64,000 bases of DNA from positions 1,704,230 through 1,768,229 of the forward strand of contig NZ_CM001775.1 in NCBI RefSeq assembly GCF_000332235.1. The letters are read 5' to 3'. Origin of the DNA: Geminocystis herdmanii PCC 6308 (lineage in GTDB: Bacteria; Cyanobacteriota; Cyanobacteriia; Cyanobacteriales; Cyanobacteriaceae). Each line of letters opens with the position of its first letter. The first letter of the stretch is position 1. The position numbers and the translations under genes were made by a program. Under the pieces are notes generated by a model. The model was not told the origin of the DNA, did no database searches, and was given only the letters and a program-made list of their open reading frames with translations. Positions 53,043 to 54,441 of this stretch are shown piece by piece.

Positions 53043-54023
53043 ATGAAAGTTTCCTTTAAAATTCTCCGTCAAAATGCTAATTTATCTCCTCAATTTCAGT
53101 CCTACACTTTAGATGTTAATCCCACTAGCACCATTTTAGACTGTTTAAATCAGATTAAATGGGAAGTTGATGGTAGTTTGACCTATCGTAAAAATTGTCG
53201 CAATACTATCTGTGGAAGTTGTGCCATGAAAATCAATGGTCGATCGAGTTTAGCCTGTAAAGAAAATGTAGCTGGTGAATTAAAAAAAATTAATGCCTCT
53301 GGGGGGGAATCTATCCCAGAAATTGTCATTTCTCCTCTGAATAATTTACCTGTAATTAAAGATTTAGTGGTGGATATGACTAATTTTTGGCAAGATTTAG
53401 AATCGATCGAACCTTATATTAGTACTAATGCGAGACAAGTTCCCGAAAAAGAATTTTTACAAACCCCTCAAGAAAGAGAATTATTAGAACAAACGGGTAA
53501 TTGTATTATGTGTGGTGCTTGTTATTCTGAATGTAACGCCAAAGAAGTTAATCCAGAATTTGCAGGACCTCATGCCTTAGCAAAAAGTTATCGTTGGTTA
53601 ACGGATTCGAGGGATAGCAATTCCGAACACAGACTAGAACAATATAATAGTGTCGATCGAGGAGTATGGGGGTGTACTCGTTGTTTGATGTGCAATGAAG
53701 TTTGTCCCATGGATGTTGCTCCTTTAGATCAAATTAGTAAAATTAAAGGAGAAATTCTTGCCCAAAAAGATATTAACGATAGTCGAGCGGTGCGTCATCG
53801 TAAAGTATTAATCGATTTAGTTAAAGATGGCGGTTGGATTGATGAACGTAAATTTGGTTTAATGGTCATGGGGAATTATTTTCGAGATATAAAAGGCTTA
53901 TTAAGTATCATGCCTTTAGGCTTACGGCTGTTATCTTCAGGTAAATTTCCTGTTTCTTTCGAGCCGTCAGAAGGTACTACAGAAGTTCGATCGATCATTT
54001 CCGCCGTTCAAATTAGTAAATAA
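53043..54023 (+). CDS. sdhB: Succinate dehydrogenase/fumarate reductase iron-sulfur subunit
   Basis: 326 residues. The N-terminal ferredoxin domain has CRNTICGSCAMKINGRSSLAC for the 2Fe-2S cluster. The C-terminal domain has CIMCGACYSEC for a 4Fe-4S cluster and CTRCLMCNEVCP for the 3Fe-4S or third cluster. It passes electrons from SdhA flavin to quinone at the thylakoid or plasma membrane. It is longer than the E. coli subunit by about 85 residues at the C-terminus, as in other cyanobacteria. SdhA is encoded elsewhere. Confidence 0.93.
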   Translation: MKVSFKILRQNANLSPQFQSYTLDVNPTSTILDCLNQIKWEVDGSLTYRKNCRNTICGSCAMKINGRSSLACKENVAGELKKINASGGESIPEIVISPLNNLPVIKDLVVDMTNFWQDLESIEPYISTNARQVPEKEFLQTPQERELLEQTGNCIMCGACYSECNAKEVNPEFAGPHALAKSYRWLTDSRDSNSEHRLEQYNSVDRGVWGCTRCLMCNEVCPMDVAPLDQISKIKGEILAQKDINDSRAVRHRKVLIDLVKDGGWIDERKFGLMVMGNYFRDIKGLLSIMPLGLRLLSSGKFPVSFEPSEGTTEVRSIISAVQISK

Positions 54024-54054
54024 TAGATGATCAATAACAGAACTTAGGTAAAAA

Positions 54055-54441
54055 ATGTTATCCACCATAGAAAGAATCAAATTATCAAAGAAAGGAAAAG
54101 ATCAATTAGTGAAACTCAAACGAATCACTAAAGTTGACAACTGGAATGTATTATGTCGTTGGGCATTTTGTCGATCGTTAGCAGAAATTCATAAACCAGC
54201 ACCCTATCCCATTCCCGCCGATAGTAATTTAGAAATGAGTTGGCAAACCTTCGGCGGTGATTTAGCTGATATTTTGTTTCTAGCTTTAAAACATAGATGC
54301 GTTCAAGACGGTTTTGATACAAGTCCAGAAACTCTCAATAATCAATTTAGGCTACATCTTCATCGAGGTATCGGTTATCTGGTGGGTAATCCCAATCTAT
54401 CAAAACTAGAAGACTTATTAGAATTAGAAATTCGTGATTGA
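54055..54441 (+). CDS. dndE: DndE-family protein (DNA phosphorothioation) without dndBCD
   Basis: 128 residues. IERIKLSKKGKDQLVKLKRITKVDNWNVLCRWAFCRSLAE and SNLEMSWQTFGGDLADILFLALKHRC match the DndE family, the small DNA-nick-binding subunit of the DndBCDE phosphorothioation machinery. No dndA, B, C or D is found near it. It starts 31 bp after sdhB, so it is transcribed with it. It may belong to a remote dnd locus or have another role. Confidence 0.85.
   Translation: MLSTIERIKLSKKGKDQLVKLKRITKVDNWNVLCRWAFCRSLAEIHKPAPYPIPADSNLEMSWQTFGGDLADILFLALKHRCVQDGFDTSPETLNNQFRLHLHRGIGYLVGNPNLSKLEDLLELEIRD

Follow-up and report, generated by a model that had tools for sequence, protein, structure and literature searches.

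Here we report that the dndE gene carried by a 64,000-nucleotide stretch of the Geminocystis herdmanii PCC 6308 chromosome (hereafter the window; positions 1704230-1768229 of a single contig of 4,263,418 bases, in a genome 99.98% complete) very likely encodes a subunit of a complete DndCDE core for DNA phosphorothioation, whose genes are scattered over the chromosome and look vertically inherited. Ordinarily, dnd genes form a single cluster and move as a unit. The window gene stands apart from the other members of the pathway, and it is nevertheless not an orphan, since dndC and dndD are present elsewhere in the same genome. We regard the set as a complete machine because all three genes are single and full-length, carry their motifs, occur family-wide and are under purifying selection. 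The machine itself is known and its gene arrangement unusual; disordered cyanobacterial dnd operons had already been noted in 2021 (Jian et al., PMC8569181).

The dndE open reading frame (ORF) is intact, with 128 codons, and its product is recognised by Pfam (PF08870, 144.1 bits, 2.6e-42; cut-off 25), by NCBIfam (TIGR03184, 116.1 bits; cut-off 71.85) and by the PADLOC DndE profile (1.7e-15). The first 17 PDB matches of its AlphaFold2 model (mean pLDDT 81.5) are all DndE chains (7x4e, 4lrv and 5wtu), the best being 7x4e and 4lrv with TM-scores by target of 0.78 and 0.75, and the next match has an E-value of 1.5. The model contains helices, DSSP giving no strands of three or more residues; DndE is described as two ribbon-helix-helix units (PMC10853773). 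An earlier note on this DNA had placed a DndE-like gene here, and coordinates, profile libraries and fold all uphold that placement.

In DndE of E. coli B7A, nicked DNA is bound by lysines K17, K18, K20, K53, K87 and K91, and no single lysine mutant abolished modification (PMC4182426). When aligned by eye, allowing for an offset of one in the chain numbering, the counterparts of B7A K18 and K20 are K20 and K22, and that of K17 is V19, at which the lysine is not kept. All 43 aligned sequences carry K or R at positions 20, 22 and 23, and 39 of them do so at position 26. By the same by-eye alignment, R23 and K26 occupy the places of B7A G21 and G24, whose engineered replacement (G21K/G24K) raises DNA binding (PMC9239217). 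Three cysteines (C34, C39 and C82) were considered as a feature of cyanobacterial DndE only and dropped, as they are also found in actinobacterial and proteobacterial DndEs: in an alignment including four such sequences, C34 is present in all 10 rows, and each of C39 and C82 in at least 90%.

The remaining core genes lie far away on the same contig (Table 1), with dndC 1.46 Mb and dndD 829,936 bp (0.83 Mb) from dndE, and 2.29 Mb between dndC and dndD, such that dndD and dndE are not adjacent in one operon. A search with PF08870 at E-values up to 1 returned one match in the genome, which gives no support to a second, hidden DndE beside dndD. The earlier note had stated that no other pathway gene lies near dndE, which is right for dndC and dndD, whose only genome matches above cut-off fall outside the window. 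It had further proposed that the gene might serve a remote dnd locus; the partner genes do exist elsewhere and no second dndE accompanies them, although they form no single locus. A full dnd cluster with its own dndE, named there as the result that would speak against the idea, was looked for in the genome and is not there.

Table 1. Coordinates of the dnd genes of G. herdmanii PCC 6308 and of the sdhB neighbourhood (w, position in the window; c, position on the contig).
Feature	Position	Strand	Remarks
dndE, 128 aa	w 54055..54441	+	ATG 54055, stop 54441; DndE by three profile libraries and fold; only DndE found in genome
dndC	c 300825-302156	-	687.1 bits (cut-off 290.4); only copy above cut-off, full-length
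dndD	c 2588567-2590531	+	590.1 bits (cut-off 245.85); only copy above cut-off, full-length
sdhB, succinate dehydrogenase/fumarate reductase iron-sulfur subunit	w 53043..54023	+	NF009227 (NCBIfam) 584.6 bits; neighbour, outside the Dnd machine
sdhB-dndE gap, 31 bp	w 54024..54054	+	between sdhB stop and dndE start

The neighbours of dndC include a DUF2062 gene, genes that we take by eye to be min genes, and what is presumably a transposon-type gene with a masked stretch (L004:11081-12228; seen by eye). Five ORFs around dndD were scanned, a set that excludes two small opposite-strand ORFs just upstream; NADH-dehydrogenase-type subunit genes and a DUF2808 gene precede dndD and an FHA-domain gene follows it. 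Both dndD (region L221:5613-8962) and dndE thus stand beside respiratory genes, which is probably coincidence. The genome also encodes a second DndD-like ABC ATPase (contig 2516459-2518408; L006:1501-3561), which at 123 bits scores below the DndD cut-off and carries a mid-protein C-x-C, as does the CxC clade of PMC10853773; no DndE was found beside it within the 4.95 kb read.

The catalytic motifs of the two partner proteins are widely conserved, and are all present in the DndC and DndD of this genome. Among 42 sequences of each, every DndD has the ABC signature and 39 have the Walker A pattern, while every DndC has the Fe-S cysteine pattern and 37 have an exact SGGKDS. A sequence search for a solved relative of DndC gave none that was convincing, the best match being an antibody chain (E-value 0.087).

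Conservation across the family of G. herdmanii points in the same direction. Good quality was taken to mean a completeness of 90% or more and a contamination of 5% or less, and 13 of the 15 family genomes qualify. DndC, DndD and DndE each occur in all 13, in full-length form with the exception of a DndC match in G004 that begins at model position 41; of the two incomplete genomes, G002 (63% complete) yielded DndC alone and G012 (67%) DndE alone, bringing DndE to 14 of the 15. Across six genome pairs, dN/dS ranged over 0.02-0.20 for dndE, 0.04-0.17 for dndC, 0.11-0.27 for dndD and 0.01-0.03 for rpoB, and for dndE it is 0.16 against G009, which stands closest in the RpoB tree. As judged from these ratios dndE is under purifying selection, which together with its presence across the family excludes a chance ORF.

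In phylogenetic trees of 41 genomes, the family forms one clade for DndC, DndD, DndE and RpoB (support 1.0, 1.0, 0.92 and 1.0, respectively), and the dnd genes therefore look inherited within the family and not acquired singly, although the short DndE tree places G006 and G007 differently from RpoB inside the family. We also compared evolutionary distances through partial correlations in which RpoB was regressed out. DndD and DndE correlate at r = 0.74 (p = 0.001) in 18 genomes of families f1, f2 and f8, in which the two genes are far apart or on separate contigs, and at 0.33 (p = 0.037) in 20 other genomes that are mostly linked; since the mostly linked genomes correlate more weakly, linkage is not the cause. 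The test was run without an unrelated control protein, and we treat this co-divergence as supporting evidence only.

Taken together, these data are consistent with a mechanism in which DndD, an ABC ATPase, and DndE, its DNA-binding subunit, would scan DNA, while DndC, a 4Fe-4S PP-loop enzyme, would replace an oxygen of the backbone with sulfur supplied by a household cysteine desulfurase. The three proteins would assemble in spite of their unlinked genes, and the genomic DNA would be expected to carry phosphorothioate. Work on other organisms provides several precedents. An in-frame deletion of dndE in the Salmonella dndBCDE cluster abolishes phosphorothioation in both E. coli and Salmonella hosts (PMC4182426), and household IscS can substitute for DndA (PMC9239217, PMC10853773). 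Archaeal DndE was found to nick DNA and to prefer nicked DNA (PMC9239217); DndE has also been argued to lack catalytic residues and to scan DNA together with DndD (PMC10853773). Predicted complexes, supported by pull-down data, put DndE on the coiled coil of DndD and a DndC loop in the DNA groove (PMC12193691).

Several observations weigh against a complete and active core. Phosphorothioate in this organism is a prediction from its genes. The earlier note had called for a genome search for the other dnd genes, and this recovered one dndC and one dndD but, with TIGR03233 at 1e-10, DndB was found neither in this genome nor in five other family genomes of the class sample; DndB is reported to be non-essential (PMC8569181). 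The specificity residues of DndC are R-Q-G here, and among the 13 family genomes R-x-G in 11 and R-x-N in two. The sets described in the literature are T-R-S, T-Q-N or N-Q-T, and R-x-K/R (PMC12193691), and as R-Q-G fits none of these three patterns, the target motif is not predictable by the published rule, the nearest guess from R-x-K/R being GGCC, and even activity is only presumed. Outside the family, f2 forms a clade with RpoB only, f12 does not with DndE and f6 does not with DndC, suggesting some exchange or a lack of resolution in those groups. Finally, co-divergence within the family alone (13 genomes) is not significant (D-E 0.18, p = 0.094; C-E 0.14, p = 0.188) and was dropped as an argument.

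Surveying the gene arrangement across cyanobacteria offers insights into how the dispersed state arose. All three genes are on one contig and far apart in 7 of the 13 good-quality family genomes, while in the other 6 dndC and dndD, and dndD and dndE, are on separate contigs; contig breaks limit what can be said of linkage in draft genomes. Family f2 follows the same pattern (two genomes far apart, one on separate contigs), two genomes of family f8 have dndC beside dndD with dndE far off, two of family f12 have dndE on another contig, and further genomes have dndD together with dndE and dndC apart. In a class sample of 388 genomes, searched at 1e-3 for DndE and 1e-60 for DndC and DndD, the three proteins were detected in 97, 77 and 85 genomes, respectively. 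Within the order (62 genomes) all three are present in 50, none in 8 and partial sets in 4; the rest of the class (326 genomes) has all three in 25, DndD with DndE in 8, DndE only in 12 and none in 281. Because every one of the 25 complete sets outside the order is clustered while those of the family are scattered, an ancestral cluster has probably broken up in parts of this order, presumably by genome rearrangement. dndD-dndE pairs on one contig fall into two groups, with 63 of 76 lying within 10 kb, 13 at distances of 365 kb to 3.96 Mb and none in between; for 15 further pairs on different contigs linkage is not judgeable. The divergent DUF2062 neighbour of dndC is the same in 8 of the 13 good-quality family genomes, which represent three genera; likewise, 8 of the 13, from two genera, have the same NADH-dehydrogenase-type genes ahead of dndD. 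Since these neighbours are common to several genera, the scattering predates those genera; most other neighbours of dnd genes are not common across the genera of the family.

The position of dndE behind sdhB invites a different explanation, namely that DndE has lost its link with DNA sulfur and been recruited to another task, for instance in regulating or assembling succinate dehydrogenase. The two genes are separated and oriented as the earlier note had described, so that they may be co-transcribed, and dndE in this strain is probably read through from sdhB, as judged from the short gap. The adjacency is found in 5 of the 14 dndE-bearing family genomes (G000, G008, G009, G010 and G012), representing two genera. 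In four of these five, however, the genes are tail-to-tail, with ends that overlap or lie within about 150 bp, and hence do not form one operon. Only the present genome has them in the same direction, and the relatives show no conserved co-directional placement of the kind expected of a succinate dehydrogenase operon member; of the synteny that the note had suggested examining, adjacency is found in a minority of the family genomes and the shared orientation in none of the relatives. Other genes neighbour dndE within the fetched flank in 9 of the 14 genomes (some flanks being cut by contig ends), every good-quality family genome keeps dndC and dndD, and the basic residues at positions 20, 22 and 23 are retained throughout. 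We consider recruitment extremely improbable, and the corresponding suggestion of the note finds no backing in these arrangements. An orphan dndE was likewise rejected, given the dndC and dndD found elsewhere and a sdhB arrangement that is not conserved. The link between dndE and sdhB is accidental; given that G009 has the tail-to-tail order, the same-direction placement is most simply explained as a strain-specific accident, a short inversion having carried dndE with it.

If dndE belongs with dndC and dndD, it may still be asked whether the scattered genes are decaying relics of a broken, inactive system, which we judge very unlikely. Clusters do decay in this class, as seen in the 12 DndE-only genomes outside the order (at the thresholds given above): in 7 of 8 such loci examined dndE adjoins a mere piece of dndD, the remainder of which has no match within the contig in five (G175, G199, G361, G127 and G182), and an ISL3-type transposase gene adjoins the piece in G175. 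The piece runs off the contig end in the other two (G024 and G285). These genomes had been considered as evidence for a free-standing DndE function, which is mostly not upheld given the dndD pieces. Set against decay in the family are the full length of all three genes in the 13 good-quality genomes (with the G004 match as noted), dN/dS values of 0.02-0.27 in six pairs and the retention of catalytic motifs; nor would one expect relics to turn up in all 13.

Similarly, DndD-DndE and DndC could make or read a modification other than phosphorothioate, perhaps with the methyltransferase-like family TIGR04096. The latter occurs in all 42 of the searched genomes that have the full DndCDE set, this one included, the R-Q-G residues match no published pattern, and some DndD-DndE cores have been argued to drive other modifications (PMC10853773). 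Nevertheless, a DndC with all four Fe-S cysteines points to sulfur chemistry, and TIGR04096 is not specific, since it also occurs in 3 of 8 dnd-free genomes of the order and in all three DndE-only genomes searched; its presence in the former also means that it is not upheld as a strict fourth Dnd component. We therefore hold this alternative to be very unlikely. The TIGR04096 member of this genome (contig 3012116-3013930, minus strand; a family named for its link to phosphorothioation) is unlinked from the dnd genes, and in G184, G108, G384, G051 and G204 the TIGR04096 gene adjoins dndE.

Our preferred reading, a dispersed but complete DndCDE core, can be compared with known systems. As in the classical Dnd system, comprising a dndBCDE operon with dndA or iscS (E. 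coli B7A, Salmonella Cerro 87, Streptomyces lividans), the core proteins exceed curated cut-offs and show the DndE fold, the Fe-S cysteines and PP-loop of DndC, and the ABC signature of DndD; unlike it, the three genes are single and unlinked, dndD and dndE are not neighbours, DndB is not found at 1e-10, and the specificity-loop residues of DndC differ from published sets. Both members of the DndD-DndE 'obligate pair' described by Rakesh, Aravind and Krishnan in 2024 (PMC10853773) are likewise kept in these genomes, which fits a joint machine, whereas the 13 widely separated pairs noted above depart from that description. Related modification and defence systems include Ssp and PbeABCD or CxC-ATPase systems, in which CxC-type ATPases pair with clade-2 DndE (PMC10853773); in contrast, the one DndE found here is accompanied by a DndD that scores above the canonical cut-off. 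In cyanobacteria, dnd genes have been described as enriched in Nostocales, where the dndFGH cluster is absent, and as vertically inherited in Cyanobacteriales, with 'disorder of the operon structure' (PMC8569181). We found in that study no family in which dndC, dndD and dndE are all unlinked and all kept, although configurations in its figure S3 may show such cases; it places clusters only in Cyanobacteriales, whereas we find 25 complete clusters outside the order of the window, with the caveat that the orders may not coincide. No description of a fully dispersed Dnd system was found in the literature searched, as judged by titles and the beginnings of abstracts.

These findings have several implications. 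The dispersed set of this family contradicts the claim, as printed in PMC10853773, that dndD and dndE are always linked, and because they are not, operon-based searches for phosphorothioation can miss or misread such genomes. Dispersed genes also provide a clean experimental setting in which each subunit can be deleted or tuned separately. Genes for modification and defence are usually linked, and so are moved and lost together; an unlinked yet complete set in 13 of 13 good-quality genomes separates co-inheritance by linkage from co-inheritance by function. It is possible, if rather doubtful at present, that phosphorothioation in this family has become a chromosomal core function and is no longer a mobile defence cassette, the mark serving the cell's own DNA at an undescribed target. 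We raise this idea because the genes are unlinked, single-copy and universal in good-quality genomes, DndB was not found in the six genomes searched and the DndC residues are atypical. If true, the mark would act in redox protection or in regulating genes and not in restriction, and the dispersed set would allow the role of DNA sulfur to be addressed where phosphorothioation looks like a household function.

Several variant loci were encountered beyond the family. Six of the eight DndE-only loci have a distant relative of DndC nearby (24-29% identity; G175, G199, G361, G127, G270 and G182), scoring 111-133 bits in the two that were scanned, against the DndC cut-off of 290.4; this speaks against decay as the whole account of these loci, and a variant system may exist there. 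dndE lies beside a dndD piece with such a relative near in L282, L283, L284, L286 and L289, while L288 is without a dndD piece, and the DndC-like gene region is next to a TIGR04096 gene in L282 and L284. Loci of the L282 type may be clusters in decay that keep dndE longer than dndD, or may represent a variant system that employs a different DndC-like enzyme. In G175, an MntA-type nucleotidyltransferase and its HI0074-type partner (L282:6545-7319), a pair of a kind known as toxin-antitoxin, separate dndE from the DndC-like gene.

Plasmids also carry dnd genes. A mobilizable-typed plasmid of Chondrocystis sp. NIES-4102 encodes a diverged DndE annotated as hypothetical (L295:6001-6534; 39% identity), and no DndC or DndD match was found in the 12 kb read around it. 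A 27-kb plasmid of Picosynechococcus sp. PCC 8807 (L294) has dndD-dndE, a partial DndC match and a phosphorothioation-associated methyltransferase; a gene for a HigB-type toxin and an HNH endonuclease lie nearby. Finally, the dndC genes of the f2 genomes G036 and G197 (L193 and L194) differ by a dS of 0.80, compared with 0.19 for rpoB, 0.29 for dndD and 0.07 for dndE, and this far greater divergence suggests that dndC may have been swapped for a foreign copy in one of the two.
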